Shown in pieces: positions 16,165-62,249 of a stretch of 64,000 nucleotides of DNA. The notes beneath the pieces were generated by a model that made no database searches, was not told the DNA's origin, and saw nothing but the letters and a program-made list of their open reading frames with translations. Numbering within the stretch: the stretch's first letter is position 1; each line of letters starts with the position of its first letter. Both the position numbers and the translations under genes were made by a program. The stretch comes from Coptis chinensis. Taxonomy: Eukaryota; Streptophyta; Magnoliopsida; Ranunculales; Ranunculaceae. The stretch is taken from the NCBI GenBank assembly GCA_015680905.1, contig CM027380.1, positions 15,518,001-15,582,000 of the forward strand. Reading direction: 5' to 3'.

Positions 16165-20897
<4,733 letters not shown>

Positions 20898-21189: not shown

Positions 21190-21220
21190 CTAGCATGATG
21201 CATGTGCGGTTCCGCACATG
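21190..21220 (-). mobile_element. Helitron 3' terminus (hairpin + CTAG)
   Basis: On the minus strand a 9-bp stem (CATGTGCGG / CCGCACATG with a 2-nt loop; 21201-21220) is followed by CATCATG, then CTAG, then a host T. This is the canonical Helitron 3' end. The element body would extend to higher coordinates; its 5' TC end could not be placed. It lies about 290 bp upstream of the DUS2 start. Confidence 0.6.
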
Positions 21221-24536: not shown

Positions 24537-24539
24537 TCA

Positions 24540-25625: not shown

Positions 25626-27036
25626 ATATACCGAGTCGTTTCGGTTGGGCCGGACCGTTTATTATTTCGTACCAGGAGTATACTTGACTTTTCATTACCC
25701 GAGCCGTTTTTATTTTGCGTCAAGAGTATATTCGATCTTTCATCTACCCGGTCTTTGTGAGTGATTAAAAAAAAGGTGTCCTCTAGAATTATTTTTTTCT
25801 CCTATATTATGGAGATTGGAGAGTTACTCTTTGTAATTAATTTAGAAAGGAAATTATTTTTATAGTTTATTGGGGGTTTATTATCAGTAAAAATGTAAAA
25901 TACATAGGAATGAAGTTATCTCCAAATTTCAATAAAATAGAGATTAGACTAGACCGAATAAAGATCATCAAGGAATACTATCACTATCAAATGAAAGCCT
26001 GGTGGATGAATCGCACTCTAATAAATATTTTTTTTTGGTAATTCACTTTAATAAATGTTGAACCTGATGATATTATCATTATATATCCATTCCCCATCAA
26101 ATTGCAAAGAAAACAAACCCACTTAATGCGCATGGTCTTTCTTCCAACTAAAAAAAAAAACTATACAAAACAAATTTGACTCGTCTGTTGTCTCACAGGC
26201 GAGGTACTACCAGCACCATTAATGATAGCACCATATGTAAATGGTAAAAACTCTACTTCAATAATTAGACTAAGATCGAATAAGATTTGGTAATGGCCGG
26301 CTTCACTCAGTAAGATTGAGTTGCCTATGTATCAAACTCATTTATGGGCGAACTTAAATCAAGCCAGTAGTTTCTCTGTCCTTCTTATAGTGACTAAGTA
26401 AACGTGGACGTGCTAGGAAAGAAAAATTGGGAAAAAGAATGAACGCATGTAAATTAAAATAGTAAATTAAAAGGTCAATAATGAAAAAACACTTCAATAT
26501 GCTAGTTGTATTCTTTGTCCGATTCTAATTATGATGCTCTACCATCATCTCTTTTTTTTTTTTGTTGATTTAAATAAGTAGGTAGCTTGGACAGAGAAAG
26601 AATTTGTAGCTAGCTTAAAAAAATATTTTTATTTATTTTATTTTATTTTATTTAGAAACGATTACATTTGGAAACAATTAGAAAAAATACATTGGACACT
26701 GTTAATATTTGGAGTGAATTGAATGTGTAAATAATAGTTTTCCGAAAGATGGTTATGTAGCAAGATTACAATTTAAAAGCTTTCAATATAATGTGGATTT
26801 TATTTCATGTGTATGGAGATTGAACGATTCAAATGTTGGAGTGTTGATTTTTTAAACCATCTATATGGAGGCGACAAAAGGAAGAAATTATGGATGCTAG
26901 CTAATTGCATCGCTGAATTTTTACATTGGTTATTGGTCCCCATTCTGAAAATGTTATTAGCATCCAACGCCACATGCAGAACTTTGGCAGGCGTCTGACT
27001 TCAACTTGATTAACATAATGCAATAAAATGTTGGTT
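25626..27036. other. Intergenic, no gene seen
   Basis: AT-rich with homopolymer runs (TTTTATTTTATTT near 26632). No supportable gene. Confidence 0.45.
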
Positions 27037-27333
27037 CACTACTACAGAATGACACTTATACTACTGTTTTTAAGTGTGGTATAAATATATTTATCACTGT
27101 TATACAACCGTGACAATAGGTGGTGTGGTATATAATAATAGCAAAACTGTAGTATATATGTTTAACGGATACCACGGTTTTTCAAAGAACCGTGGTTTGT
27201 ATGCCCATTATATACCACGGTTGTCAACAAAACCATGGCATATAAGCTATTGAAACCATGGTTTATATTAGTGTATGTGTTGTAATACCGTGGTATATAG
27301 TTATACTAAACACTACGATTTATGCCAAACCGT

Positions 27334-27334
<1 letters not shown>

Positions 27335-27391
<57 letters not shown>
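27335..27391. repeat. (TA)n microsatellite
   Basis: About 28 TA units following a CCGTGG subterminal motif of the CACTA element. Confidence 0.95.
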
Positions 27392-27394
<3 letters not shown>

Positions 27395-27710
27395 ATAATG
27401 CTAGTAACAGTCTTCCACTTAAAAACCGAACCTGCATAACAAAATTTACACAGCCTGTCTACATACAACATTTCCATCTTCCCAACAAATTCCAAAATGT
27501 ACAATAAATTATCAAACATTGCAAAAAAAGATAATAATAAAAAAAAAAACTTCCATTAATTTTTTGAGTGCACTAAGAAAACAAACTTCAAGTTCCTTTT
27601 CATAAATTAAAAATGTAAGACTCATAAATTAAACTGGAGGGATCCGAACATAGCTAAAACTCATCCTCATTCGCTTCCGACTGAAACACCCCATTTTCCT
27701 AGATGAACTA

Positions 27711-27711
27711 A

Positions 27712-27750
<39 letters not shown>
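27711..27750. repeat. (ATT)n microsatellite
   Basis: About 13 uninterrupted ATT units inside the CACTA element. Confidence 0.95.
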
Positions 27751-27752
<2 letters not shown>

Positions 27753-28769
27753 AGATACAACTAGCCCTAGCCAGCACCGGTTGCTATATGAACTAGCCAA
27801 GAGCCCAAGATACAACTCTTTTCAAAAACAGTTCATTCCATAAAATACACAATCACACCATCAATCCCATTCAAGAATAAAACATTCATTCCATCACTCA
27901 AAATTATCAAGTCACTTGTAAACACCAAGTACTTCAATTTTCCAAGCTTAAAAGTACAATACAAATCACTTCGTAAATACCAAGTACTTCAATTTTCCAA
28001 ACGAAAAAGTACATTACATTATGCTTACAACTAGCTAGAAAAAAGTCTTATTATTAGAAAGTGTCCAAGTGGCAATATCGACCACCTCTATCCTTCAAGG
28101 TTAGGCAACAAACAAATGTCACGTGCATTACCTGTTTCATTTAACAAAAGAATTTAAATAGACTTTTACCTTAAAATGTAACGAGAGATATATACAACAA
28201 TAGATTCACTTATACTAATTAAAACTAAGTGACATAGTTTCTAGTCTACCAAATTAGTAACATAGCAAGAAGGTAATCATGCCACTAGGATATCAAAGAA
28301 GCTATAGGCTATTACTATTTGATAACACAACACTAATACACCGTAAAACCACTTATGGGAGCCTCTTTAGCCCTATAAGCTATATGAATAACAAGGTGAC
28401 ATATATACAACTAAACGGGTACTGCCTCTACCTTCTAGTAATGTGTGAACAACTATTAAGGATAAATTCCAACCATTAAAGATATATACATCCTTAAGTG
28501 ACAAAAAAGTAATGCGTGAACAACCATTAAGAATAAATTTCACACTGCCAAACATATTTAACAACAACAAATGGCAACAACAAATTGTTAGCTATTCTAG
28601 ACACGGCCACTAAATGAAATGGAAATCTCCTTCTCTGTTAAATACTTGCTACTTGATTCACAAGCTTATTAATATCGCAAACTGAACAATACTAGTCCTA
28701 ACACCGCAAAGACAGTCAAAATGATAATTCAACAAATTACTTGCACCTCAGAATCTATAACCATTATTA

Positions 28770-30625
28770 CTGGATGTCTTTCAATGAATTCAGCTTCAAG
28801 TTCATAAGTTGCTTCTGATATCAGTCGAAAAAAGTATTTAATCTTTGAAGCATTTAAAGATACAAAATCATATATATACATTTAAAAGCGGTGTAACACT
28901 TAACTCAAGTCTAACTTTTAATTTAAAATATAATGGAAAATTATCATATATATACATACATACATCTTGTGATAATAGAACAAAAAATGTGTATAGATTG
29001 AATGCTCAAGGCATGTGTAGTTGCAGGTTTTAGTCAAGTAGATAACAAAGATAACGTAAGGGAAACTACAAGACCATAACTTTCTTCTTCATTGTTTTCC
29101 TCCCTTCTCGAAGGACCAAGTTTAATAGGTTGGAAAACCCTATCTAATTTCCATTTTATGCAATTATGCAATGAAGATGGTGATTAGTGAAGTACAAAGC
29201 GTCTATTGAAAAGAAGGTATAAAAAAATGGTATGTTCTATTTTTGTTTTTCTTTCTATTGGGAAGAGTTTGATTTTGGAGAAGGTGAATTGGTAGAATAT
29301 ATATGAACTCGTAGAGGAAACAAAAGATACAAGCTCATAATGATAGGTAACCCAACAAGCACACTCATCGGTCCAAGTGGTAAAACCTTGAGTAGACAAA
29401 AAAAGGAATTACATCACTTGGAATACCGGTTTGCTTCTTGGTTCAGCAGGGTAAGAAGAGTATTAAATTAGCTTAAAAATGACTAGAATATACAGATGAC
29501 GACATGGGTAACATAGCATGAAGTGAAAATTTTAGCAGACCAGGTACCTAGTGTACAATTGCACAAATTTCTTAAGGTACCATATTCTCTTGGATAAACA
29601 GTATCTGGCAGATCTGACTGCAACATCATTCCCCCTTGGCCACCCCTCCTCCAGGCAAGATGCTTTCAGCAATAGTCTCCCTTACAAACCTGAGAAAGGA
29701 AAAAAACAACGTCCGAAAAATCTCTCAAGAATGTAAGCAAGAACAGATAAAAGGATAACTAGATTACAAAAATGCCATAAGATGACTTTTAGTTTGGATC
29801 AGATGTATAGAGCATTACCACAAGAATGACTGACAAAGGACAAGTAATACATGAATGCCTTGAGCAATTCGTTTTCTTGATAAATGTGACAGATACACTT
29901 ACCTTGCTAGTTTGTCTCGGGAGGATTGCAAGATATAGATCACAAGAATGAAAGATAGCACAAGTCCTGTTTCACATGCAAAAACGAAAACTTATTCAAA
30001 GATTTGTTCACGAAGCCTAACTCTACTCCTATTGATGCACAGTTCCGTTCCATCCCTGATTGTTTGTAGCTAAAAGGAAGCTTATATCACAAGAGTTAAT
30101 CACCAAATTCCACTAATTCCAGTTTCTTGGAAACATCAATCCTGATTCTTAAATTGCCGTGAGAGTAGCAGAGGTATCACATATGTACTATAGTTTCAAA
30201 ATGTCCATTTTCCTCAATAACTTGCTTTCTTTCTTTGCTATATAGAAAATACAATTATTAATAAGTTGATAAGCATGACACGCCTTTTTACGATCCAAAC
30301 AATACATAAAATCCAGCAGCAACATCTATCTCGGACGCCCTCGCCTGTAATATTTGCCAAACCATCAACTTTGGAGAATGGAAATATAACACCATATTAA
30401 CACCATAACAAGGCATGGCATGAAACACAGATCACTAACTTCTAAAATCTTTGAGAATCAACTACTACTTAGAGAGAATACATAATGTATTTGGCTATTT
30501 GCAAAGCTAAAGGCATGTAATTGATATACTAACCATGTATATCGATAAGAACATGTTTTGGCCAATCGCTCGATCCCAAAACTGCTTACGTAAGCGGGAT
30601 GTGTTTCAACAACTGCACAATCAAC
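28770..30625 (-). other. Unrecognised exon-like pieces inside the CACTA element
   Basis: Several minus-strand stretches look like exons with splice signals but match no family I recognise. Near 28817-28745 is LISEATYELEAEFIERH followed by GTGCAAG. Near 30350-30300, after TATTACAG, is ASEIDVAAGFYVLFG followed by GTAAAA. Near 29968-29903, after GAAACAG, is GLVLSFILVIYILQSS followed by GTAAGT. Near 29689, after TTTCTCAG, is FVRETIAESILPGGG. They lie downstream of the ZIFL exons on the same strand. They may be further captured fragments or the remains of transposon genes. Confidence 0.3.
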
Positions 30626-31460
30626 AGAAGGTGAATAAATACTAGATTGATGCATCATAAACGAAGTTGAGAGCTTAAAATTTTATTTGAAGAGAGAGTC
30701 AGCAATATAGTCAGAAAAGTACTTCTCCTGCAGTTAGAGTAATGTGAGTCTTGCATGGAAGCAATACAAGATTAATCATCAATAGGATTTCAACATCAAA
30801 GCCATTCGACATAATAAACCCACAAATTTACATCTCGAGAGAGAAATACACATAGAAGCGTTACTTAATCTAGAGATGCCCAATCGAAGCATGGTCAATA
30901 TGGATTGCTATGTGGCTCACATCATAAGAACTTCAGGCACAATGTGCATTCAAGAGCTTGAAGCACTAAGGAGACAGGTGAACACCTTATTGAAGTGATG
31001 GGCCATGAAACCTAAAACAATATATGATAATGATGTAAAGACTTCGAGGTTAAGTTTAAAATGTGCATTCCGGTCTACTGTTCCATTTACTCAACCTATG
31101 CTAATACGACCTTTGAACCATCGTCTAAGTAATACTCTAATCGACTGATACCAAGTATATTATCTATAAGATCAATTAAATATGTACCAAAGTATTTTCA
31201 AATGGTTATATCGATATGTACCCAAAACACGTGGATACTTTAATGTCTACCAATAAGTTCCTTTGAAAACAAAAAGTCAACCACAAAATGAAAAGCACGA
31301 AACCATATTTAGTACTTGGACAAGAAGGAATGATACAAAAGGGATGGAAGGGAAGTATCACATACAGTGGTGGGGCATGTCTATAACTTTAGCTGTGACC
31401 CCATGTAAATCACTTCCTGAGTACATATACAGAATCTACTCAGAGTTTAGTGCTGCGTAC

Positions 31461-33318
31461 CTGGGAGGAAAGAAGTATCCTGGCGCTTTTGTGTCCAAGA
31501 AACCCTACATATAACAAAGACACAAGTAATTAAGGAACAAGATTGGAATTTGATTTTTCTTTATTCTACCAGATCACCTTAAATATTCAACGAAATATTG
31601 GATTTGCTTTGAAGACAAAGAAATGATGGTATGAATGAAATATGGAAATCAGGGAGAACAATTGTATAGTTGTACACATAAACTCCACAGATGGCAACAA
31701 GTACATTAAACAAGATTGACATTGAAACTGTGGTCAACCTTCCACCATTTCCTTTGGACTCGTCATTCTAAGGTGTGACTTAAATAATGTAATGGTGTCA
31801 CATGTTTGAATGCTCATTATATATCATAAGAAAGAACTGGTATGTTAAACAAATGATCTGAGATATCACTGATATGATCTTGGATTACACTAGCGAGGTT
31901 GCATCATGTTGTACGAGCTAGGAAGATGACTCTAAATTTGTATCTGTCTAGGTCAAACAGGAAGCACAAAACAGAAAGCTGTTCTATTGGCCTATATTAA
32001 AACGACTCCATTTTTGTGAGGGCTCTATGGATTTCACTTGGTCTTCAAGAACAGCTAATCGTGAGTCACTTTCGCTAGGAAAATAAAACTATAATGTCAT
32101 CGTTTTTGAAGCTAGAAGATGATACAAATGATTATATATTGAGAAATTGTTGTATTCATGTGCAAGTACATGTCATTGTCGTAACAAAATACTTCTTAAG
32201 AGTACTTACAGAAAACCTCCTATGGCCAGTCCAAGACCTCTGAAGAGAGACATCCCAGTCATAGCAATTCCATTTGCAGCTCCTCTTTGCTTCTGGTCCT
32301 ATTCGTATGGTAATAAATGCCAATCATTCTAGTGAAAATGGCACAAACAAGCCAATAGATATCAATGCAAATATGATAGTGAAAAGTTACCACCGCATTG
32401 TTCTGTAGTACGGATAGTCCAGTGGCAATGACTATCTGTTAAAGAGAGAAAAACAATATTAAACAGACCATCATTAAGTTCATTTTTTCTTGTAGGCAAA
32501 AAGAAAAGAGAGAAAAAATGACCATCATGAAGTTCATACTTACTGTTAAAACATTCATCAGCATAGATGCACATTCAAAGAAAATTAAAAAGCCGAACCC
32601 GGATAACATAGCTATGAAGGGGTAACTTTGCAACACCGGTACAGATAAAGTCATAAAACCTACACGTATAACATAAAGGGAGCACATTCAATCAATAATC
32701 TGAGCTGAATCTTAAAGATAAACTTTAAACCATGGAAAATCTTGACACCTACCGCTGCTGTAACGCGAGAAACCATGACTGGACCGAGAATTCTCTCTAT
32801 CAATGGATATAGAAAAGTTTGAAAGACTAAAAGGCCCCACCTATACTTGAATAAGTTAGTAATTTAATCCCAAGAACAAACAAAGTCATTAAACTACTTC
32901 ACAAAGATTATATGTACATATACAAAGTAAAGTTGGTGAATTTCTTTTTTAATACTCCTAGATCACTTAACTGCTAACATTGCATTTCTAACAAGACAAA
33001 TTTGATTTTCCAAGAGGAGTTGAAGGAAAAGATTTGACTTTGAGTATCTGTACATATAATATATTATTGCAAAGTAAGCATTATAGATACTATTCACAAA
33101 GAAATTCTCAAGCAATACTTTATCTAATTGAGTAAATAGGTTAAAAAAGAGGTTGGAGAATTTTCTAATTTCAGAAGCACTTCTAATTATAAGTTATAAG
33201 AATTAAAACTATGATGATAAGTATCCAACTTACCAGAGATTGTGAGAACAACGCCAACCTTATTAGTCGAAAAACCTAATCCAAAGGTTTTCGAACTGAC
33301 AGCCCATAGAGAAAATAC
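31461..33318 (-). pseudogene. Captured ZIF1-like (ZIFL) MFS transporter exons
   Basis: Six minus-strand exons with GT-AG borders are recognisable: 33318-33234, 32840-32753, 32659-32544, 32435-32391, 32298-32210 and 31504-31461. They encode the C-terminal half of a zinc-induced-facilitator-like major facilitator, in gene order. Diagnostic stretches are VFSLWAVSSKTFGLGFS, LYPLIERILGPVMVSR, LQSYPFIAMLSG, GLSVLQNNAV, QRGAANGIAMTGMSLF and SWTQKRQDTSFLPG. The N-terminal transmembrane half and the last exon are missing. Exon 2 is one base out of frame after the first splice junction, so no full product can be made. Known: ZIFL proteins move zinc-nicotianamine or potassium and affect auxin transport. 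Here the fragment lies entirely within the CACTA ends, which points to capture by the element. Confidence 0.82.
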
Positions 33319-34297
33319 CTGTGAAAGAAAGTTCAAGCTTCAGTTATACATAGTAATTAGGAGACATTTTACACCCTCGGGAAAATATCCAACTCAAGAA
33401 CATTCGTATAAGCTCACTTGATGAAGTACTAGAATTGAGATTGACTGAAATGAAAGTAGAAAGAAAAAGAAAAAGAAAGACCCCATCTGGCTCCTGGAAG
33501 TGGCAGCGGCAGCGGTTCATCCCTTTTCCCCTTTTGTTTTGTTTACTCTTTTCCAGGTACTGACCAGTTGACCTAATGAGCGGCGAGGTGAAAAAATCCC
33601 ACTAAAATTTTAAGCCTTCTTTCTTTTATTTTTTTTAATTGGTCTCAAATTTTATAATTAGATTTTAACATTAGTCAAGCTTGTGCATCCGTTAGTTAAT
33701 ATCTCTATAAACGCGTTACAAAATAATTCCGATAATTTACTAATGGTTAAGTAATTATGTAACGGAACACTAACTGTTATTAACTTACTAACGATGTATA
33801 TGTGTTACAAATGAGAAATTACAATTGTTAGAAAATCCTTGTTATGGTGTAGTGAAAAAAGCTGTTATGGTGTAGTGACGGTAGGTTTTCTCACTGTTGC
33901 GGGAATCCTAAGAGTCGTAGAACTGTAGAAGTTGTAGGGAGAGACCGAGAGAATAGTGGGAATCCAATTTGAATGAGTTTAAGATCTTGTATTTTTTTTT
34001 TCGTATTTGACTATTTGGTATAAAGTCATAAACCACGGTAGAAAGTGGAAAATTTATATACCACTGTTTATGTTTAAGGTAGTGGGGATGTGGAGTACTC
34101 TCATGCTGAAAAAAAAAACTAACCATGGTATATGGCCCAACTTATCCCACGGTTTTCATGTAACTGTGGCATATACTAGTAAACCAATGACCAAAGAAAT
34201 TTCCGCCGTGGTATATAAGTATTTCCCACGGTTTTTGGAAGAACCGTGGTATAAATGTTCTTATTGACCGTGGTATATGTGTCATTCTGTAGTAGTT

Positions 34298-34679
34298 TTG
34301 AGAGTCAAATTAAGTATATTGGGTCTCTGTCCAATGAATTAAGAATTTCAGAAAGAGTTTTCCTGTTCTTGAGTTGTCGGTTAGTCGATATACGATCAGT
34401 AGATGATGACCTTTCAAGCAGTGCAATTTTTGTGTTCTTGGAACTGAAAAATTGAAACTTAAATTTCTATTAACTTGAGTAATGTAAAATATATCAATGT
34501 GTGAGAACTTTACCTGTTCATTAGATGTTTAAGTTCAGGAATTTCCAAGTTGTAATAAATTTTTGTTGCTCTTGTCGAATTTAGATAGTATACACTTGAA
34601 ATATTTTAAAAATTAGTTCATTCCAAGCGAAGGAATAATATGGTAATATACAGTGATAATTGTATTCATAATAATGAAG
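34298..34679. other. Short non-coding junction between CACTA and Helitron block
   Basis: No gene or repeat is evident in this stretch between the CACTA right end and the RPA-like pseudogene. Confidence 0.4.
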
Positions 34680-35581
34680 TTACCATTATAGATATCAACA
34701 GTCAACGATGTTACAACGACCACAGGCTGATCCACAGTAGAGTTAATGATATCTTTGTCAACCAAGTCCACCCCATTTTCCCATAATGTAATCCTTATTT
34801 TTTTCCCACTGGGTGGTAATGTTTTGCGAGTATATAAATACAGGTAAGAATTTCATATTCATTAAAAAACAAAATTATTGAAAGTTGACCTCTCAGTCCT
34901 CAAGTGAATATTTCTCAGTTGCTTCATTCCTTTGCTAAACGTTATGGATGTATGACATTCCTTCAAGCACGCCATATACATCTGATAGAGATTATAAAGT
35001 TATAAAGAGATATTTGTTATGCATGAATATATAATATAATATATATATATATATATATTCTCAACGTACCTATTAGATTTGTGATTTGTTTGTAATGACT
35101 GCAGATGTTATCAAATTCAACAAAAGCAAACTTGTATGGTGGAATTTCTAATTGAGTTTCACTTAGCAGTCTAACAAATGTGTCCCATTTAAAAAGTATA
35201 ACAAACTCATTTTCATCAGGCCGATAATTTGAGACTGTTTGTACAATGAAATTTTCAGCAGCATACACACAGCCTTCTCAGATAACTTTTGAGAATTTTT
35301 CTACTTGCTTCTTTGGAACAATTGCATGCATTTGATTTCCCTTAAACCAAAATATACGAAAGTAGTTAGTAATTGTTTGCAATAAAAATAATGGAAAAGG
35401 AATTTGTGCAATTCAAATGAAATTGGCTAACTTTATCATCTATCAAAACCATGTCAAATCTGTTAGTTTTTCCTTGCACTTCTTTTCCGATGCTCCATTT
35501 TCTAGAGACGCGGAACTTAATTTTGCATTGCTGATCCTGGTCATTTATGTCAGACAAAGGAAGATATCCCGGCGTTGTCAT
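34680..35581 (-). pseudogene. RPA70-like OB-fold protein of Helitron type (decayed)
   Basis: Four minus-strand pieces with splice borders run in order. The first starts near 35581 (TTPGYLPLSDIN, then FDMVLIDDK). The second is at about 35340-35067 (GNQMHAIVPKK, VSNYRPDENEF, IPPYKFAFVEF). The third is near 34983 (DVYGVLEGMSYI) and the fourth is about 34790-34685 (ITLWENGVDLVD, VVVVTSLTV). These are the OB-fold blocks of replication protein A large-subunit-like proteins that plant Helitrons carry. In-frame stops (after KFSKVI and after GMSYIHNV) show it is dead. Known: RPA-like proteins bind single-stranded DNA; in Helitrons they are thought to assist rolling-circle transposition. Position and strand match the Helitron pieces at 39-41.5 kb. 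Confidence 0.75.
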
Positions 35582-36434
35582 TTCAAAGGAAGCTTATAAA
35601 ATTTTAAAGTCAGAGGAATATAGACCATGGAAGGACTGCTATTTCATTTAAAAAAACTACAGGACTATGAAAAAAAAAAGATAATGAAACAATGCAATAA
35701 TGAGTCTAAGTGAGCTTCTATATTGCTCTAACATAGACATAAGATTGGGCTAGTAGGTTCTATGTTAGCATATTTGCTGGCGTTAATCATATAAGCTTGT
35801 GACTGAGATAGTAGTAAGTATTGGTGACACGATAGAATAAAAAAATGATGTACATTGTCATCAGTACATGTACATAATTATAAAGGTCCTTGCATTGCTG
35901 AATTACGCCGAAAACCGAGTTCATGGGCATAACACGCGGTGAAAACATAGTTGGTTGCACCAAGACCCACATAAACCAATTTTGCAAAAAAAGAAAGTAG
36001 GGTAGCTAGGATAGCCAGCGATAGTGCATGACAAAGAATAGGACATAAGATTATTGATCAACTTCTTAATATTTGCCTCGAACTCTTGGAGATGTGCATT
36101 GGTTGAGAGGGCCATCAATGTGAAGAGTGATCATGGTTTTGTAGTCTAGTCCCCCTAAATTGAGAGCAAGACCTAACAAAACTTAAGATACAACCTATAC
36201 TTTTTGAAGAAGCATATGGTGTATTACTGAGTTTTCAAACTATCAAACCGTCAATAAATTGTACACAGGAACTGAACATTTGAAAGTAATTCATTGATAA
36301 AAAATTACAGTTCACATGAGACATGAGAATGCTTGAGTACACTAACTTATCGTATAGGAAATTGAAGCTCATTGATGTGTTTACTTTGTAGATATACAAA
36401 AGCCACACAAAAATTATCATATGTTAAGCCTTCT
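35582..36434. other. Non-coding part of the Helitron block
   Basis: AT-rich, with ORFs under 75 codons that show no recognisable domain on either strand. Confidence 0.4.
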
Positions 36435-36975
36435 TCATGGGCGAGTTAAGTGTTGGAGTTCAAACACATGTAACCTGTTGCTTATACACTTAATATTCCC
36501 CCAGGTTGAGAATGTCAATTGGTGGGAAAGTAACCTCTTCTCATCACTCCTGTCGGTCTCTAAACCATCATCCTCTTCTTCATAATCAATCTCAGTGACG
36601 CTTTCCTTTCCATTGAGCTTGTGTGATTCTGAAAATTGTACTTGGGAATACTCACCTCCGATAGGAGGATTGTCAAACTCGATCTGTTGCATTTCTGATT
36701 CTATTAACGCTTACATTCGTGCTCTCGCTCTGATCTCTTGGATAAGTGGAGTAGAGGAAGGAGTAGATGAAGCAACATATAGTCATTGGAATTGTTATTG
36801 CTTTGTAAAGAGCTTTGGCAAGTGATGCGGCATTCTCCCTATCTGTTTCAATCTCAATAGTTTGGCTAGACCATCGAGGAACATGTTTATATCCATACAG
36901 ACGCTGAGACAAAATCCCCACTACCGGAGGAGCAAATGAGGCCAGTATCGACTCAAAAGATTAATCCAGGGCATA
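36435..36975 (-). pseudogene. Captured C-terminus of a UNE2-like MFS transporter
   Basis: The minus strand reads YALD, a stop, then SFESILASFAPPVVGILSQ, the periplasm-facing end of the plant UNE2 (AT1G78130) type of major facilitator. The last transmembrane helix (ITIPMTICCFIYSFLY) and the family signature TYPRD follow. After that the frame slips by one base: the continuation with ESEMQQIEFDN and an acidic tail is in another frame and has a TAA where a glutamate codon is expected. Only about the last quarter of the gene is present. It is fused directly, without an intron, to P450 sequence at its 5' side. Confidence 0.8.
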
Positions 36976-37590
36976 GAACACCAAGAGGACGTAAGTGGAC
37001 ACCTTCATTTGTGAGAAAGCAAATTCTTTCCCAGCACAAATTCGCTGGCCAACCTAAGAAGCAAGAAATAACATGAATTTAGTTGTATTCGACTCTGTGC
37101 TCCCACAAATTTAAAAAGAAAAAAAAAATGAAGAGATTGTTTGTAATTGGTCTAAAAAATCACAACGGCATGGATAAAAGTAAGTGTTTTTTGTCTAAGA
37201 GGTGTGAGAGGTCCAAATTAGTACCAATGGGAAAGTTTGTTTAATAAAATCTATTACCTGGAAGGCTAGGATCTCCATGCGGCAACTTGAAAGGGATCTC
37301 CATGCGGCAATTGCCATCTTCGTCGATCTACCTCTCAGGACGATATTCTTCTGCATCCTCACCCCAAATATAGTTCATTCATCCCATGTCATAAGGCTGA
37401 TACGATACCAAATCACATTTCTTCACCCTAAATCCATCTAGCAAGGTATCATCTCCAAAGCAATATATTGCATTCTACATATAACCAAGACCAGATGTAA
37501 TATTTTAATAATCAGCACACGTAAACGCAAATAGCTTGGGAATAATAAAAGTGTAAGCATAAGACTTCTTTGGAGTATCTTTTGGAATTG
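36976..37590 (-). pseudogene. Captured CYP704-like cytochrome P450 fragment
   Basis: Minus-strand blocks in P450 order are present. DDTLLDGFRVKKCDLVSYQP followed by WGEDAEEYRPER is the PERF-region segment of CYP704-type enzymes. After an intron (acceptor TTCTTAG near 37054) comes GQRICAGKEFAFSQMK, the heme-binding cysteine motif and the start of the L helix. In-frame TGA and TAG codons break the first exon, and a 17-bp block (37269-37285) is repeated at 37294-37310. Known: CYP704 enzymes hydroxylate long-chain fatty acids. Here only the last third remains, so it cannot be active. Its downstream end runs straight into MFS sequence. Confidence 0.8.
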
Positions 37591-38165
37591 TTGAAGCCAG
37601 CTCGGTGACTGGAAGAACTTCATCTTGACCTGAATGAACAGGGGCCTCCACAACCTAAACTTCTACAGTGGATATTTCACCATTGTCTAATGGCTCATGA
37701 ACCACCTCTCCATTTCCGTATGACACCTCCACTTCTGGAGTTGTATTCTCAGGCATGGGATGCTCAGGAATATGAGAGGGCTCTGCAACAAAAATTGCCA
37801 AGAATAAACACAAATGGTACCAAGCCACCTGTGGAATATAAAGAAATGAAAAGAAGATGAAGGCAACCTGGATCTGGGGTAACAGGAGTTAATGTGACGT
37901 TTTCAGTGACGCCATTAACTGCAATGGCAACTGCATCGGACTCCACCATTTCATACTCATCCATAAGCCTAAAAACATCATTAAGAACAAAGTACCCTTT
38001 GTCTTGTGGGGCCAGGAAAAATGATTGAGTAAACTTCCTTTTCACAATAAGCCATCCAGTTACTTGAACAACTACTCCACCCTTGTAAGAGTCCTGAGCA
38101 TCAATTGTTTTGATCTCTGCCTTACATTCCTTGTAGTCCATGGAGAGAATGACCACATTAATATC
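37591..38165 (-). pseudogene. Captured G3BP-like NTF2-domain fragment
   Basis: Exon 38165-37868 (minus) encodes the second half of an NTF2-like domain (ILSMDYKECKAEIKTIDAQD, KFTQSFFLAPQDKGYFVLND). It is spliced (GTTGCC donor) to an exon starting at 37782 with the acidic/proline linker of plant G3BP proteins (NGEVVHEPLDNGEIS, VTELASTIPKDTPKKSYA). A TAG interrupts the second exon after STVEV. The RRM that normally follows is missing; the sequence passes into P450 instead. Known: G3BP-like proteins are RNA-binding and stress-granule-associated; NTF2 domains mediate dimerisation. The N-terminal NTF2 exons are not present upstream. Confidence 0.82.
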
Positions 38166-39203
38166 CTGCTCCAAGTTAAATAAAACACTATTATTTCCAG
38201 GTGTAGAAATTGAGAAAAAATAGAAAGTGTACCTATCTGAGAAATGAGTGAATGTCGTAGTTGTATGGCAATGAACAACTTTAAGCAACAACTGGGTGCA
38301 CGTGGAGATCAAATACACACTCAAATTATATTGCCGACTCCTTTTTTATCCTAGAAAAGGTTGATCTCCTGGAAACATAAAACATCACAACAACCCCAAT
38401 ATTCTCTACACAAAAATTCAACCACGTCAACATTGGAATTCTTACAATAAGAATGATTGACAAAAGCTTCTACACCACCATGTGGTAAGGTAGGGAACGT
38501 TTCTTAAAAGAGATATATTAATTAATACCAATACTTAGTAGAGGCAAAAAAAAAAAATTAAAACCAAGGACCGAGTAAATTGTTAAGACTTTAAAACCCA
38601 AAATTCAATTCACAGTAGTTTCGCTCAAAGCATGAAAGTAACAACTTGGTTGAGGCAAATAAAAGAACAACATAATTAACGTTTACCATAATTTTGAAAA
38701 ACATGGACCTTATCCTAACAAAACAAATTTGGCATAGACAACATAACTAAAGAAAAAGAAATCACTTACAAATCCCTAAAAGTACAGGATCTTGATATTC
38801 TTTTTTTCTTCACTTTAAGAAATACTCACTTGACTTTAACAAAAGAAATAAAAACGAAATTAAGTGTGTTTCTCCGAATTCAAATAATGCACTTCTTTTT
38901 ATTACTAAGAGAAAAGTTTGTAATTTTTTTAAAGCAATTTATTAAAAAGACTCTTAATAATGGAAGGTATAACTTCAAACCTGACAATTAAATGAGTGAC
39001 AACTAAACGAGGCTGAAAGATGAAGAATATGATGAGCATACAATAAACATACCCAATCTTCCGTGTGGAGATGAAGAGCAGATAAAGAAAGTTGATGTCT
39101 CAAAGAAAGCATCGTTACTCTTGTAAAATGGTGCCAGCGCAAAAAAATTGGAAACCAAACTTGCCCTAAACAAAATTTAAAAGTAAATTAAAATAATAAT
39201 AAT
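38166..39203. other. Non-coding part of the Helitron block
   Basis: AT-rich. The minus strand near 39120-39060 has a short ORF-like stretch with splice-like borders that might be Helitron-derived. Nothing firm. Confidence 0.35.
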
Positions 39204-41510
39204 CTAACCTCTCCCATGTGGAGAGGAATTTTCAAGATGAAGAAGAGATGTTGTTGAATACGAACTTTTTAGCATTCTGATTCTCAATTTCATGGTCAAT
39301 GTCATAGATGTACATCTGTAAATATCTTGGTTTTTATTAGGCCCCGACAAAAAACTTCTAATCCTATGATAAATAGAAGCTCTTGCACGAAATGAGAAGA
39401 CACCATCTTTACCATTTGCAAGCTCTTTATCAAAATCCACACCCATTGAAGTAAACAAAAATATATGATTGTAGGAGCGGATGTTTTCTCTGAAATGTTT
39501 CCCAAGCCTACTGATAAGTGCTCAAAAAGTGTAATTTAACCCTCGATTATGCCTCTTGTTTAGCCATCTTAGTGGACTAATAGTGTTTGTAAGTTATGTT
39601 TTATGATTCTACAGGTAAAAAAGTGAGTTTTGTGGAATATTAGAGAAAAATGGATAAAACGGAGCAATTCGAGCATTATGGATCACATGGGAAACCCGTG
39701 GACAATCATGGAGAAGGCCAAGGAATCGAAGCTATTAAAGATGCGACTTGGACCTATTTTAAAGTCTATTTAGAAGCCCAAGGCCAAAAGATTCGTTGCT
39801 TTGACCAAAGCCCGCAAAAGAGGATATAAGGATGGAGTAGAAGAGACAAAATAGGCTTATGCGTTTGGGACGCATGGATCGAGCGTCCAAACGCATTGAT
39901 TGCATTTGAGACGCATGAATCGTGTGTCCAGACATATGAATCGACACTGTAGCCAATTCCTTCTCAGTTTTGGAGACGAAGTTGGACTCTGAAAGAAGTC
40001 TATTTGTATTAGGAAACAAATGACGGTTTGGAATGCTTTTAGAACTCATTGTAACCCCTATAAATAGAGGACCTAAGTGCCTCATGTAATTTGCCAATTC
40101 ACTTATATTTTTGTCTCTAGAACTTGAGGTAGAGAGAGATTAATAATAAAAGATCGGTTTTAACTAGTTGAGTCTTAATAAATTAGTCTTTCTAGTCTTA
40201 TGTTCTTCGACTCTTCTTCTTCTCGTTCTTTGTGTTCTTCCTTATTTGTGGAAGGCTAATCTTCTCCTTCAAGGGAGGAGATGAAGCCAGTGCTTAAGGT
40301 TTAATGATTCTTCTTGTTCATGGTGTTCTTTAATCAGGTTAGTTCTTTATGTTTTTAGTTTTTAGTTCCATTGCCCACACCAGGGGATGGAAGTATAGAA
40401 TAGGGTTTATGTTTTGCAATATTAATATCATGTTAGTGTTCTTTACTTTTCTTCTAGTAGTATAATTCTTTAGAGTTAAGGAAATATTCTTTGTGTTGCC
40501 TTAGAAGGGGTAGCTCAGGGAGTGGCTGCCTAGGAGAAGTATTCTTTGTGTTTGCCTTAAGTGGTGATTCATTAAATGACCGCCCTATTAGGAAGTACTC
40601 CTTGATGTTGCTCTCGGTAATACATTGAATGGCTGCCCGAACTTACATAAAAGGAAAGAAGATATTAATAGCATAAACATAGGAACAACTTTAAGTAGAA
40701 TTAATTGTTAACGATATTTCGTCCAAGAGGGCATCGACACTCGCTCGATTGCCTAATTGTAGTCTACTTGTAAGAACAACCATAAAGCAGAATGTCATAG
40801 GTCAAAAGTATTGGTGAATTCTAATATCTTGAATTCCTTTTCTTATAAATTCTCAATAGTTTAGTTAATTTAGTTTAGTTTAGCATTAGAAGCTAAAATC
40901 TCTACAATCATAGTTTTTAATCCCTTAAACCCTATTTCTAGTCCTGTCCTTCACATAACATACACTTAAAAGTGGAACGATATCCTACTCATCTTTTACT
41001 TATTGAGGGATAATTAGGTTTTGATACGTTTCTATTTTGTTCAACGACTATACACCATCTACATACACAAAAAGAGGCTTGTCACCCACCGCCATCACGA
41101 AATAGTTGCACTAATTCGGCTGGCGCCGATGGCCTAGGAAGCTTTATTCTACCTTTTCCACAACATATCTCAGATGTCTCGTGAATGAATTGTTTGGCTC
41201 CATAGTAGTTACAAAGTGTAGGTTCGGGCAACATGTAAGGATTGAAGCTTTGATAAAAAATAAAACCTCTTGCACATCTATAAAACCCATGACTTCTCCT
41301 AGACGGTGTCAAAGATGGAAGAGTTATTGACATTACATGCGAGCTGTCTCTGTTACTCCCTGGAAAGTGTTGATCGAGTAAAGAGATAAGCACAGAAGGT
41401 AATAAAAAGTGCCTCTGAGTGACATAGCATTCTGAGTGAAAAAAACTATTTATTACAATGGACGAATTTAGTAGTCGGAGCAAATGACGTAGAAGAACTA
41501 AAAGCGTCAA
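39204..41510 (-). pseudogene. Helitron N-terminal-domain pieces, split by an LTR
   Basis: The minus-strand stretch before the LTR (about 41300-41063) reads EPTLCNYYGAKQFIHETSEI then CCGKGRIKLPRPSAPAELVQ. This is the CxxC...CC zinc-binding region just ahead of the Helitron-like N-terminal domain. After the LTR (39511-39204) it continues GKHFRENIRSYNHIF, FTSMGVDFDKELANGKDG, then YHRI, matching the start of that domain. The frame is broken in places. Known: this domain precedes the Rep and helicase domains of plant Helitron transposases. Those catalytic parts are not seen here. Confidence 0.78.
39512..41057 (+). mobile_element. Solo LTR, 1546 bp
   Basis: It begins TGATAAGTGCTC and ends ACTATACACCA. 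The five bases flanking it are CCTAC (39507-39511) and TCTAC (41058-41062), a target-site duplication with one mismatch. An LTR-type core promoter (CTATAAATAGAGG near 40058) and an AATAATAAAAG polyadenylation-like signal near 40143 are present. No internal coding region, primer-binding site or polypurine tract adjoins it. It interrupts the Helitron N-terminal coding sequence, so it is younger than that element. Confidence 0.78.
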
Positions 41511-42656
41511 ACTCTAAGTGTCAAAATAGGAACAACAATAAATGTCACCTAAATGTCACACTTACACCTGGATCTAATCCATTAATATAAATCTACAATA
41601 AAAGCAAAATTTTAGTCACCAAATTACATAAGTAATCAATGGGCAAAACAGACGGGCATGAGTGTATGACTCACTGTTGTGCTGATAGAGTTGCCATTGC
41701 ACTGGATTGTTTGGGCAAAGCCTCCAAGTGATGCATATTCATCTACGATTATTGTAAAAGCTAATTTAAGAAACTTAAAAAGAATTGTTTAATAAAGTGA
41801 CAAAGTAAAAAAAAAAAATGTTCATTTGCTTCCATTTACAAATGCGTACTACTATTATGTAATTAATGCATTCTAATGGTTACCTACGTCATCAACCATA
41901 AAGGCATCACATGATTAATCAATAATCAGTAGATTGGAAGTAAGGAATGAAAGATTATCAGAACTTGTAATGCATCTCAGTACAGTGTTCCAAGGCGTTT
42001 GAAGCCCTGCATCTGGGGTTCATTAAGAGCAGAGCTTCCAACCTGTCTCTAGATATATTTTTCACAAAGCTTTACATTTTTCAACCTCCTATCCAATTCC
42101 TTCCTCCCTAAGTAACATATTTGCTTGTCACTGTTAGTGGCAGATCCTATAAAGGGGTCATCTAAATCATTTGGAATAAGCAAAAAAGGCAAGGATCCTC
42201 TAAAGTGAGAACCCTCTAAAATAGACGTAAACCAAAGTTCAACAGATGCAATGAAGATTAAAAATGAGATTTAAAAATGATAAAGTTGTCTATCCATCAT
42301 TAATTGCTAATCAAAATTGCGTAGTCAGAGAAGTATCAAAGTAGTCAGTAGTCAGAGAAGTATCAAATGAGATTTACTTATCATCAATTGATTCAGTTGT
42401 CACAGCTAGTAGGTGTAGTACACCCCTTATATAATTAAACAGATGACAACAACAACAAAAAAAATAGAAAATAAGACAAATAAGTGTGGGTAGTTTCAGG
42501 TTAGATCAATACCTTCCACATGTTCATTGACAATATGGATTGATAGATTTGCCTTTAATTTGTTGAGCATATGAGGCATTCTTTGTCGGTGTCTGCTTTC
42601 GCGTTAGTAACATTGATTTGAGCATTGTGTTGTTCTTTTGCATCCTTTGAACCATG

Positions 42657-43008
42657 GACCAAAATATCGCCAATATATCCTATATATCGCCGATATATAT
42701 CGGTATTTTGGTACACCGACATCGATATTTCCAACATATATCCACCGAATATAGAACTCTTTTTCCCGATATATATCGAATTTCCGATATGAAACTTTAT
42801 ATCACCGATATAATCGATATATATCGGTTGATTTTTGACCATTTTAAAATATAAATCCGTTTTCCAATATGATATATATCCGATTTGATATCCATGATTC
42901 GAACTTAAATAGTTTGGACTGTTACCAAAAAATGGATATATCAAAATATCCGATATATCCGATATATATCGGTTTTGTATATTGATCATCCGATATTTTG
43001 GGCCTTGC
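42657..43008. mobile_element. MITE of CCGATATATATCGG palindromes, 11-bp duplication
   Basis: The 11-bp TTTGAACCATG occurs directly before (42646-42656) and directly after (43009-43019) this 352-bp segment. Its ends are inverted relatives (GGACCAAAATATCG and GGCCCAAAATATCG on the other strand). The inside is almost entirely ATATCGG / CCGATAT repeats in both orientations. The 9-11 bp duplication fits a Mutator-like MITE. The right terminus carries four extra bases, so the exact end is uncertain. Confidence 0.65.
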
Positions 43009-43093
43009 TTTGAACCATGATGAACTAAAGTAGAACAAAGATAAAATGAAAGGCAATTATGTTTTATCTCAATTATGAAAGACATACTAAGAA

Positions 43094-43096
<3 letters not shown>

Positions 43097-43128
<32 letters not shown>
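43097..43128. repeat. (CA)n microsatellite
   Basis: About 16 CA units followed by TATATATATAT. Confidence 0.95.
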
Positions 43129-43139
<11 letters not shown>

Positions 43140-45140
43140 TCTATATATATATTCCCCATATATTGAAGGTGATAAGAAGGTCACATACAAAAACAGGTGA
43201 AGGTCGCATACAATCAATCTCATACAAAAGAAATATAGATGGGCTAAATGTCATACCAACAATGATTCCATTTAACCAAATTCAAAGCGAATAAATTTTC
43301 CAGGACCCAACTAAAGCGTCTGAAAAGGAAAGAATGTAGTAATTTTTTTTTAAAAGAACGTAGTAAATTAGTAATGCCTTTTCATTCATTTTTTTTCCTT
43401 CAAAGTCTTAAATTGGAATAAAAAGTTAACTGGAAAATTAATTAAAATGTGAAAAAAAAAGTGAAAAAGAAGACAACGATTCTGAATGAAAATAAAGTTT
43501 TACAAAAACAAACAATATTTAGATTCTACAAATATTCTGAAGCATACCTGGCGGTGTTTATGTAATGAAGCACTCCTTCTACCAGCAGCAACCTGTGTTT
43601 GACAAAGTGAGACTAACCAATCCAAATAAAACGTAAATGTGAGGATGAAATTTATCTTGTATTTTCTCAAACAATTAAAAGTGAACGGGACAAAAAGAAA
43701 AGGTAAGTAAACCGATTTCTAAGAAGAGAAGTTTTTCTGCAATTGCCTACAAATTAAATGAACCAAAGAATAAACCCCCATGGAGAATTTATTCGCCATG
43801 GAATTTAGATCGAAACTTGGAAGGAGAGAGAAGAAGAGAGCATCATTTTTATTCGTGAAATTGGTACAGTTAGTTATTAGGGAAACTATCCAATTGGTGC
43901 GTTTTCTATTAGGAACGGGTTTCCTATACCTTATTTTGGTGCTGCTTGAAGCATTTTATAGAAGTAGTGGTCTACCATCCCTTCCTAGTATCAAGGAATG
44001 TCATTCAAATTTGGATAGATATCAATGCCAAACTCATTTTCTATAATTTCCAATCCCACACTGAAAACTTTAATCAATATTGTTAACAGTTTCCCATTTT
44101 CAATAATTTGTAACTGTCCAAGTAACACAGAAGAGAATTTATTGGTTGGCAAGTATTATTAAGTTATGTTTGCTTCCTGCAGTTGTATCTTGGCACGGAC
44201 CATACATGCCCGTCCAGATACAACCTCATCGTCTAAGTAAACTCTGTACTGACTCAAGAAAAAACATTCAATGGAACATGATATGTGCACTTGGGAATCC
44301 AAGCCTCTTGAATGAGATCATTAAAGCAAATTATCTCAAGATCCACATCATATTGAACACCTTCAAGATTGTAATGTGATTCTTAGGATGACAGCACTGC
44401 CTCCTCAAACAATTTGTATGACTTGTATGATTGTGGCACGATCACAAACTTGCTCATTTGTTACCAAATTAAAATTTCTAATCATACACAACATACCTCT
44501 AGTCCTCGATGGATATTGTTTAATAATAACACCAATTAGAGTTCCTCTCCCATTCAGCACCAAATATGATCCCAAAGTTGTTTGAACTGCTACGAAGAGG
44601 AAAATACCAGTTTGAAATCTTGAGAGAATGACCATAATTAAATTTAGCAATCAAATTTATTTACTATCAATGATATCTATGCACTGACCTTATCAACCTT
44701 CTCATATTTTTTTTGGGAAAGTATCGAAACGGTTGGTTGGGGAAAAAATAACTGAAAACTTGGTATAAGAAAATGGGGCAACAGATTAGAAGACCATACC
44801 TTTCCGTTTGAGGTGGGAAGTTGGGTAAAAAGTCCTGAATGATAAAGGCACTATTTTGTGGCTGGAACAAAAAAAAAAAAAATAGAAAAAGAAAAATAAA
44901 GAAATAGAACAATAAGAAAATTGCAGACAAATTTGAAGAAATAAACAAAATCCCTACCTATGCGCTTTAGAGTAGGTTTCAATTCATCAATTCAATCAGC
45001 AGAGGAATGAAGAATTTGTTTTTTTAGTGGAAAGAAGATTTTGGTGGAATGACGGAGTTAAATTCGGGAGGGAGCGAACTTAACGGCTTTAATTGGGAAT
45101 ATCAGGAACGAAGAAGACGAACTAACGATGTCTCTGTTTT

Positions 45141-46505
45141 CTTGTGATTCCGTTCCGGATGTCCCAGATGCAGTGCCTGTTCATAGGGATTCAGTTTCGA
45201 AGTTCAAGTGTTGATGTGTAGTGAAATCGGAATAGACTCAAATCCGGGTTTCTCGGGGTGGGATGGCAATATTTCCAATCGATAGGTGGGATAAGAATAG
45301 GATGGATAGATTCACCCCTTTTCACTTCCATTCTCTTGGGGCTAGGCTCATATAAGGGTTTAATTTTAAATGTCTCATGGGTGAAAGTTTCAGAATGGAA
45401 AAGAAGAGGAACAGGTTTTAATTGGGATATATCTGCCAAACGGTGTCTGTTCTGCGAAGATTATTTTTTAGAGTCTGAATGAAGAGAGTTGGGATGATGA
45501 AGAAAAAGAGTTTAGAGAATTTGTGCACCGTTTTTTTTTCGTTGTGATTTATGGAGCGATTTCGTTGTGATTTATGGAGCGATGGAAAGGTGCATATGTT
45601 TGGGTTTTTTTTTCCATTGTACGTTAAGTGATGGAAAGGAGAAATGTATATACAATTTTACCCTTTCCGTGAAGAGCAAAAATAAAGTGGTTGTCCAACT
45701 TTCCGGTACCCTTTGGATTAAAAACTTTGATGTAAAACCGGGAATACGGAAACTAATTGGAAAATCCCTTATCCGTATTATATATAAGATATTTGTAACC
45801 TCTCTTTCCTTTTCACCTTTCGCTCTAAAAGATGTGTTAAATGTTTTTATTGTGCGTGATTGTAATTGATCACTGCGCAAAGTTGCCTTGTTCTGCTCCT
45901 CTTTCTTCATTTTGTAACGATCGTATATAATAAATGCATGTGACTTGGCTGGCGTGTTCTATGCTCGTCGATCTCTCCAAGTCTCTGTACTAGACTAGAT
46001 TTGACTTGTCGTGCTGATTTGACTTTAGGTCGTTGTGATCAAATGAGTGTTGTACACGTGTCTTGTATTCAATTCATTGGTCATGAATATAAGGTACTCA
46101 CACCATAGCACTTTCATCAACTAGTATTCTATTCGACGTTGCAAATATCTTCAGTGTCCAAATGCTTTCACGTACTACTTTCAAATTTCACTTCCTACTC
46201 ATAAATTTTGGGTATTCCCTATAATGAAACCTCCCTCATTAAGCATTATCTTGAGGAACTCTACTTAGGTGCTGCTTATAGTAGCCACTCCACCTTAGAG
46301 ACGAAAGATGACTAGGCCAATATGCAAATGAAGTGGCACAACTACTGAACCTCAAAGGAAGGGATACAAATAAAGATGATACAATTTACAAGTAAGTTTG
46401 CGAACAATGACCTGAAAAAGGCAATAGTGGAGTCGTCAATAGGAGGTTACAACATAACACCTTCAAAATTGTATTCACAAATCATGAAAGTAATTGTGAG
46501 GGAGT
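45141..46505. other. Intergenic, no gene seen
   Basis: Small ORFs on both strands only. A 23-bp unit is duplicated in tandem at 45538-45560 and 45561-45583. No recognisable product. Confidence 0.45.
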
Positions 46506-47138: not shown

Positions 47139-48509
47139 ATGGAAAGCCTCGAAGCTCAAATCTAGAGTTTGACTGGTCAATTAGGTCTGATGAATGAGCA
47201 AATTACCCTGCTCAGGTAGGAGAATGTTACGCTACGCGCGCAAGTGGACACACAGAATCCACCAGGTGCCTTAGCAGAGGACGGCATCAATGAAATTAAT
47301 CAACAGATTAACGAATTGTCACAAAGGATCGACCAAAGTGCAGTTAAGAAAGATGCCACCCAGATCGTTCAAAAAATGCTGAAGACATACCGTGCGTCTC
47401 CGTTAGCAGCTGAGGTACTTAGTAGAGCTTCTCCTCCAGATTTCATCCAACCACGTTTTCCAATGTATGATGGCAGCACGTGTCCTGGTCAGCATGTGGC
47501 TAGCTACATTCAAAGCCTTGCACTTTATAGTGCGTCGGAGTTCGACCATCTACATGGTCGTTTGTTTCCCGCTAGTCTCAAAGATGGCGCGCTCGATTGG
47601 TTATTTTCACTCGAGCCAGACTCGATAAAGAACTTCGATCAACTCACTGACCTGTTTGCTAGTCAGTACGTCCACAATAGACGTAAAAAAGCCGATCTTG
47701 ATTCGCTCTTCCAGCTCTCATTTGGCGAGGATGAAACCATTTGCCAATTCCTAGGTCAGTTCAAAACCGAACTGTTATGCATGGATAGCGGTCTCAAAGA
47801 ATCCTTTACCACACTGGCATTCTCCAACGCCTGTCGAGTGCACAACACAGCGCTATCCAGATCGCTCATGAAGGAACGACCAGAAACTTTGTCTGAATTG
47901 TACTCCCGAGTAGACAAGTACATCAAGTTGCAAGAAGACCTGAAACGTCAAGGCCTAACGGAATAACAGGAAGTAGCAGCAATCTCCGACAATGCCCCAC
48001 CTGCAAGAAAGCGACCAAGACCGCAGGAACAGAAGTCTGGGAATAGAACCAACAACAACAACCGCGAGTTCGCTGTTCTCACACGATCTCCCAGTTACAT
48101 ATTAGACAAAATCAAGCGAGCTTCATACTACCGACCTGACATACGAAAGCTAGAAGATCGACCTGGCAAGCCTTACTGTGCCTTCCACCGAGCAAAATGT
48201 CATGAGATTGATGCATGCTGGGGGATCAAGCATTACCTCCAAGACCTCATCGAATCAGGACATATCAAGCAATACACCAACATCGCTGATGGTGATCTGT
48301 GCCATAAGCTCATGGCCAATAGGGAACGAAGTAGATTTCCACCTCGCCATAATCGTTATAATGTCCAAGCTCGCTCCCGTAGCAGAGAACGCCCTAGAGA
48401 CCGTTCCCGCCATGAGCGCCGTCAGCACTCATCAGATAGAGATAATGACAAAACCATTCATATGATCACCTTTCAGGATGATTCCGTTCCATCTTCCAGA
48501 GAAAAATGA
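47139..48509 (+). pseudogene. Tat-lineage gag
   Basis: One frame runs from ATG 47139 to the TGA at 48509 with in-frame TAG at 47163 and 47217 and TAA at 47964. The middle matches the retrotransposon gag family (FPMYDGSTCPGQHVASY, FDQLTDLFASQYVHNRRK, LFQLSFGEDETICQFLGQF). After the TAA, the C-terminal part continues with a zinc-binding segment (YCAFHRAKCHEIDACW) and an arginine-rich SRSRERPRDRSRHERRQHSS stretch. Gag would package the RNA; this copy can make only a truncated product. Confidence 0.82.
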
Positions 48510-48629
48510 AGATGCGTTGGCGTTCTCCAAGAAGTATACCAGTTCTCTTCACAGGCTGCACCTACCCCTCGCAGTTTAGGTCTTAGTTTCGATATAACTT
48601 TCACGAAGGCCGACCTCAACAAGGTTTGC

Positions 48630-49709
48630 CTCCTCTCACAATGATGCACTAGTAGTCCATGTCAAAATTAGCGACTAGACAGTCAAGCGTGTTCTGATAG
48701 ATCTCGATAGTTCATGTGACATCTTGTTCTACCATACCATTCAAGAGATGAACTTGCCCAAGTCGGTCTTCATAGACCCAATTGCTCCTCTCTATGGGTT
48801 CAATGGCTCCAAAGCCGACCCAATTGGTGACATCATACTCCGAGTTACTGTGGGATCCCGAGAAGGCAAAGTTAGCTTCAACACGCGTTTTAGCGTTCTA
48901 GATATCAAATCGTCCTACAACGCCATCCTAGGACAGTGTTGGATTCACCAAATGCAAGCTATACCATCCACACTGCACTAAGTGCTCCGCTTCCCTGGCC
49001 CTAGGGGAATGATGGAGCTTCGCAGCAATCAGCTCGAGGCTTATCCTTGCAACCAGATCCTTTCAGCAAACAAAGTTGCTAATCCATCTATCAGCATGAG
49101 GAATGAGCCCACCAATTACACGATGGCCAAGGATTTAATCGCGGAGGTCAGATCCAAAGCACCAAAACAGAACGCTGGGGGGCTCTAGCAAAAAAGTCTA
49201 TTCGTCTGTCAAGACCCTAGAGGTCGCTTCAGGAGTTGTTACTTTACCAGTCAGGACCTTAGAGGTCGCCCCAGCATATGTTAGTCAATCGATGTAGATT
49301 CTAGAGATCACTCCAGCTCCTGTTGTTATGACCACAGAAGTCACATCAGCCCCTGTTGTCGTAACCACAGAGGTCACTCCAACTCCTGCTGCCAATTCCA
49401 CCATTCCTCAGATCGACAAAGCATCACCAGAGATCAGTTCCCCTGAGATCACCTCATCTTCATAAGCATCAGTTTAGACTATAGGAAGGGAGCGAGTGAA
49501 CTTAGGAACAGAAAAAGATCCCAAGTTCGTCTATGTAAGGGATAACCTTGACCCTACACTCAAAGCCCAACTTATAAAAATTTTATCCATGAATAAAGAT
49601 GTTTTCGCTTGGTCGTATATTGATGTGCCCAGTATAGATCCTACTGTTGCATGTCATAGATTAAATGTCAACCCTAATGCGAGGCTAGTTCGACATTGAC
49701 CTAGGAAAC
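48630..49709 (+). pseudogene. Protease and start of pol (Tat element)
   Basis: The retropepsin core VLIDLDSSCDILF is followed by YGFNGSKADPIGDI and AILGQCWIHQM. The usual D-x-G-S-S active site reads D-L-D-S-S, so catalysis is doubtful. Frame shifts occur relative to gag. The region 49496-49699 holds the linker before RT (LSMNKDVFAWSYIDVPSIDP). The reading ends at the nested LTR. Confidence 0.72.
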
Positions 49710-53190: not shown

Positions 53191-53220
53191 AAATTGTTTA
53201 TTAATTACTTCATTCTTTCA

Positions 53221-62167: not shown

Positions 62168-62249
62168 AACCACTCCCCCAAACAACATTTTGCTTGTCCT
62201 CAAACAAATATGAGAAATTAACATAAGTGACCAAAAAATGGTGTCAATT

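Follow-up and report, generated by a model that had tools for sequence, protein, structure and literature searches.

The window (the whole 64,000-nucleotide stretch analysed here, C4:15518001-15582000) contains a Helitron in which pieces of three ordinary host genes are joined, and the finding is real. One piece comes from a G3BP-like gene, one from a P450 gene that we take to be CYP704-like, and one from an MFS transporter gene that we presume to be UNE2-like. It is highly probable that the locus is a non-autonomous, RPA-bearing plant Helitron that took up DNA from three host genes. A preliminary description of this DNA had placed three fragments on one strand, head to tail, in the order G3BP, P450, UNE2. 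The fragments are present at that place and on that strand, as judged from domain matches and donor DNA matches, but the order needs one correction: the P450 resumes beyond the transporter, colinear with its first part, so the UNE2 piece is nested inside the P450 piece. The cargo thus reads, on the minus strand, G3BP, P450, UNE2 and the remainder of P450, as follows (further copies of the composite are named by their contigs, C6, C3, C8 and C4):

37555..38200, minus strand: piece of a G3BP-like (NTF2) gene that includes one intron (~37867-37783, GT..AG), with an NTF2 match and 92.9% identity to its likely donor, L006
37554..37555, minus strand: joint 1, G3BP/P450, with 0 extra bases; identical in the window, C6, C3, C8 and C4
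36988..37554, minus strand: first part of the P450 piece, containing one intron (~37257-37054); 89.6% identity to its likely donor, L038
36978..36987, minus strand: joint 2, where 10 nt separate P450 from UNE2; the same 10 nt in the window, C6 and C3
36238..36977, minus strand: piece of the UNE2-like MFS gene comprising its last exon and 3' flank; 90.3% identity to its likely donor, L041, over 36977-36322, the stretch from there to ~36238 being assigned through related elements (L032-L034) whose match to L041 extends further
36146..36237, minus strand: ~92 nt between UNE2 and the P450 tail; 5 places in the genome, all in these Helitrons (5/5 candidates scored)
35700..36145, minus strand: second part of the P450 piece, covering the C-terminus and 3' flank; 89.1% identity to L038 over 36145-35916, reaching 35700 against L039, L040 and L042

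In profile searches, the NTF2 piece of the window matched Pfam PF02136 (E 8.7e-17) and, among structures, Rasputin/G3BP (best E 1.6e-10). The P450 gave weak matches to PF00067 in two short, colinear pieces (E 0.013 and 0.024, both under the curated cut-off), and a Pfam profile search with the UNE2 fragment gave no match. Donor searches in the host genome, which the preliminary description had suggested together with a comparison of divergence, led to likely donors with gene structure at three separate, widely spaced loci of the same genome. The G3BP-like gene L006 (C1:9.12 Mb; 658 aligned bases) matches NTF2 (E 1.4e-8) and, under its cut-off, RRM_1 (E 0.0061). The P450 gene L038 lies at C9:77.27 Mb (567 aligned bases), and four of the five frames tested there match PF00067 (best E 8.3e-17), one of the four under the cut-off. 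The MFS transporter gene L041 (C1:43.0 Mb; 660 aligned bases) matches MFS_1 (E 6.3e-21) and has a frame change close to its C-terminus. These three genes are likely to be the true donors rather than close paralogues. The same three-gene order as intact host neighbours, named beforehand as the observation that would speak against capture, was found nowhere among the matches listed (best 40 of 64, 10/10, best 40 of 41 and 32/32 candidates scored).

We searched the plant genome (935.6 Mb, 116 contigs) with positions 36435-38165 of the window, minus strand, and obtained 52 matching rows from the best 40 of 64 candidates scored; along this query the blocks are G3BP at ~1-611, P450 at ~611-1183 and UNE2 at ~1189-1731. 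Among the matches listed, the three-part join occurs at five places. All three blocks align as one match in the window, at C6:90792215-90793937 (93%) and at C3:752162-753865 (89%); at C8:43312058-43313316 and C4:99723638-99724895 they are present with a middle deletion, a later event that spans joint 2. Joint 1 (37555/37554) is identical in all five copies and joint 2 in the three that retain it. Judged by eye, joints and donors have 0-1 nt in common, the extra sequence being the 10 and ~92 nt given above; since the P450 match to L039 and L040 extends to 36983, about half of the 10 nt may still be P450. The five copies diverge by 1.0-8.2%, depending on the block. Neither the P450 tail nor the RPA block was detected by blastn in the 50-kb regions containing the copies C3, C8 and C4, so the backbone of these three copies differs.

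The cargo sits in an element with the following parts:

26394..45789, minus strand: Helitron element running from its 5' end at 45789 to its 3' end at 26394 and interrupted by two later insertions; ends common to copies C6, C8 and C4, flanks A/TC and AG/T
45770..45789, minus strand: Helitron 5' terminus, TCTTATATATAATACGGATA; identical start in the window, C6, C8 and C4
41085..41513, minus strand: first of two stretches of a RepHel N-terminal remnant, 41420-41087 being 90% identical to repeat L045
39512..41057, no strand assigned: probable solo LTR, a later insertion into the RepHel remnant; ends TG..CA, flanks CCTAC/TCTAC, judged by its ends only
39207..39521, minus strand: RepHel N-terminal remnant, second part; 92% to L045 over 39506-39266
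34308..35593, minus strand: the Helitron's RPA-like gene, interrupted by a CACTA element; weak REPA_OB_2 match, DUF223 in a relative
27037..34295, no strand assigned: CACTA-type element, a later insertion into the Helitron, right end imperfect; CACTACTACAG ends and CCGTGGTATA-like subterminal repeats
26394..26427, minus strand: Helitron 3' terminus, ending TTAG/T, hairpin damaged in the window copy; compared with C8 and C6

Both termini were sought across the genome (5' terminus, 40 matching rows from the best 40 of 370 candidates scored; 3' terminus, 48 rows from the best 40 of 335). In the window, C6, C8 and C4, the 5' TC is preceded by A and the insertion lies between A and T; the 3' ends before this T read TTAG in the window, CTAG in C6, CTAA in C8 and CTAG in C4. 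The flanks of the four differ, and we therefore regard them as separate insertions. The GC-rich hairpin before the 3' end (GCACGTGC-AAC-GCACGTGC in C8) is whole only in C8, nearly so in C4, and has lost part of its sequence in C6 and in the window. Our search of C3 did not find the 5' end and gave a possible 3' end, defined by the motif with up to three mismatches. The C8 and C4 copies (L021-L022 and L026-L027) each carry two Helitron 5' terminus motifs, ~1.2 kb apart. A strong hairpin with CTAG at 21190 of the window, minus strand, was at first taken as the 3' end and was ruled out by the copies ending at 26394. This perfect hairpin (CATGTGCGG-AA-CCGCACATG, 21190-21220, minus strand, with CTAG/T 7 nt later) resembles the 3' end of another Helitron.

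The preliminary description had also placed Helitron N-domain remnants upstream of the cargo and an RPA-like gene downstream in the same orientation; the RPA-like gene does lie there in that sense. The repeat that the remnants resemble, L045, is dispersed and belongs to a large family (at least 150 matching rows, best 150 of 546 candidates scored). Pfam searches of the N part (39.2-41.5 kb) and of L045 gave no match, and the tested frames of the Rep region likewise matched none of the Pfam models. However, a relative of the remnant, L046 (76% protein match), has a Pif1 2B helicase domain downstream on the same strand (E 6.8e-20), which ties the N part to RepHel despite the lack of a Pfam match of its own. 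The RPA part of the window matches REPA_OB_2 weakly (E 0.085), its relatives L042/L043 match DUF223 (E 3.4e-8), and a comparison of this part with the PDB gave no useful match. The RPA block, whole or in part, is present in C6, L032-L034, L040 and L042. C6 lacks the segment corresponding to 39270-44707 of the window, RepHel remnant included.

Elsewhere in the window, large inverted repeats (255-nt arms, 92%) flank triplet-rich repeats at 21821-24539, and inverted repeat arms in series at 60650-63461 form a long fold-back structure. The frames at 47220-54317 resemble those of an LTR retrotransposon (gag, reverse transcriptase/RNase H, integrase), the long open frames at 6484-8937 resemble a RING/vWA host gene, and the short frames at 19132-20771 (minus strand) resemble a dihydrouridine synthase gene.

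Elements related to the composite bear on the order of its assembly. Within the window, the P450 halts at donor position 2054 and restarts (36145) at 2104, colinear on either side of UNE2, so that 49 bp are missing at the UNE2 site relative to L038, and 44 bp relative to L039 and L040. Two elements, L040 (C8:55.58 Mb) and L042/L043 (C8:43.91 Mb), carry P450 without UNE2, ending at the point that matches 35700 of the window; past the P450 they have ~810-820 bp not found in the window, after which the RPA block begins, aligned over 671 bases in L042/L043 and over 316 bases only in L040. L040 and L039 are uninterrupted across the UNE2 site, linkage to the RPA block being seen for L040, and L042 has its own small deletion over that site (L038s 1993-2162). 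Three further elements, L032, L033 and L034, contain UNE2 from 36902 of the window together with the 92-nt stretch, the tail of the P450 and the RPA block, without G3BP and without the adjoining first part of P450. Matches of 126 nt to P450 lie 2-3 kb before UNE2 of L032 and L034 (79%; C6:16733768 and C8:75097913) and ~20 kb before UNE2 of L033 (~79%; C6:16281267). These observations fit an order in which P450 came first and UNE2 second, and G3BP may have been lost secondarily from L032-L034. The block trees (8 G3BP, 9 P450 and 9 UNE2 rows, covering part of the places matched) are star-like and do not give the order of the UNE2 and G3BP steps.

Capture and joining by a Helitron, as initially claimed, is supported by the two Helitron ends, by further copies that share the joints and by donors at separate loci. 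Counted against this explanation are the window copy's own TTAG end and damaged hairpin, a RepHel gene reduced to its N remnant and lacking even that in C6, and the differing backbone of C3, C8 and C4. That a different kind of transposon (a Pack-CACTA or Pack-MULE, for example) collected the cargo, with the Helitron incidental, is scarcely credible: there is indeed a CACTA element nearby, but it ends before the cargo, which therefore does not lie between its terminal inverted repeats, and C6 carries the cargo while its counterpart of the insertion site is free of CACTA, which largely refutes this idea; moreover, it is the Helitron ends that the copies have in common. We consider it quite unlikely that the P450 sequences on either side of UNE2 are independent pieces of one gene that came to flank it by chance. 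The ~92 nt of extra sequence at the tail joint would suit such an origin; however, the two P450 parts are colinear with just 44-49 bp missing, and L040 has the same P450 stretch uninterrupted and with the same endpoint.

An internal deletion at joint 1 has to be taken more seriously, and we give it a chance somewhat short of even. According to this reading, an older element, arranged like L007, lost its middle segment, and no capture joined G3BP to P450. L007 contains G3BP (donor 838-2266), a segment shared with L039 and P450 from 1490, in the order and sense of the window, and joint 1 (2123/1501) falls within both ranges; joint 1 is thus possibly a deletion joint. An RTF1-like identity for the intervening segment in L007/L039 was dropped, as a Pfam search gave it no support. 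At 14 G3BP sites, at least 4 of the 5 composites agree with L007 and L008 against the host, which speaks for the deletion. By the same rule, however, host and composites agree against L007/L008 at 30 sites, and host and L007/L008 agree against the composites at only 2. The P450 of L007 is also 15.5-17.8% from the composites versus 11.5% from the host, and L042 has P450 sequence upstream of 1490, so not every P450 element passes through L007.

For the preferred explanation, uptake of three host gene pieces by the Helitron, we envisage that a P450 piece would first have been acquired beside the RPA gene, a state retained in L042 and L040. A break within this piece would then have been mended with UNE2 DNA and short filler, at a loss of 44-49 bp. 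The G3BP piece may have been placed directly before P450 by a capture of its own or by deletion in a longer precursor, and the composite would then have multiplied by rolling-circle transposition using proteins from other Helitrons. The P450 elements without UNE2 (L040 and L042), together with the nested UNE2, favour the repair of an internal break over end bypass. The near absence of shared bases at the joints counts against it, in that the filler-DNA model, in the available part of PMC6544945, predicts short shared stretches.

The preliminary description had emphasized that the three captures share one transcriptional sense and keep their splice sites. The common strand and the GT..AG ends of the two internal introns of the window stand, and the retention of introns indicates that DNA was copied, not mRNA. 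Past joint 1, the G3BP frame is closed in all five copies by a TAA that lies within the retained P450 intron, and the fusion is therefore not one open gene. The P450-UNE2 joint is in frame, with a stop in the window; in C6 it stays open for 113 aa and in C3 for 49 aa. The P450 intron before this joint has an acceptor AG in both C6 and C3 and a donor GT in C3; the donor in C6 is AT, which counts against normal splicing there. The cargo of the window copy most likely has no protein function. It is possible, though doubtful, that this nested capture, with likely donors and insert-free forms in one genome, demonstrates uptake of host DNA by Helitrons through in-element break repair, and that the P450-UNE2 joint of C6/C3, behind its kept splice acceptor, may form part of a chimeric transcript.

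The capture of gene fragments by Helitrons, with multiple fragments per element and stepwise gain, is established in what was available of three reports (PMC3288121, PMC6544945, PMC4683698). The nested position of UNE2 and the coexisting forms without it are a clear example of this known stepwise capture. How Helitrons pick up host exons is unsettled between end bypass and filler DNA, as set out in the accessible part of PMC6544945. Likely donors, joints, copies and UNE2-free elements in one genome make a compact test case for such models: a UNE2 piece internal to an earlier capture is not explained by end bypass, and the in-frame P450-transporter joint illustrates the origin of chimeric exons. 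Among titles and the openings of abstracts, we found no Helitron capture of G3BP or CYP704.

As far as the available parts of the respective papers go, the window element resembles several known systems. Maize Helitrons (Dong et al., 2011; PMC3288121) likewise hold several gene fragments from different loci per element, and include related elements one internal insert apart and elements that have lost internal sequence. There, a 1,366 bp fragment was inserted near the 5' terminus, whereas here UNE2 lies within an earlier captured P450; in the portion of that paper available to us, no captured fragment is described as having received a later one in its interior. Insect Hel1 Helitrons (PMC6544945, in part) also gained sequence internally and stepwise, which was taken to exclude end bypass and to support the filler-DNA model; Hel1 has end junctions of 2-13 bp at its source loci, in contrast to the 0-1 nt plus extra sequence at the joints described here. 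Finally, the rice Mothra family (Roffler et al., 2015; PMC4683698, in part) shares with our element the 5' TC; its 3' CTAG recurs in copies C6 and C4 (TTAG in the window), and its hairpin near the 3' end has a whole counterpart in C8 and a damaged one in the window. Its putative mother element carries an RPA-like gene and no RepHel gene; the window element, unlike Mothra, keeps a RepHel N remnant and has three host genes as cargo.
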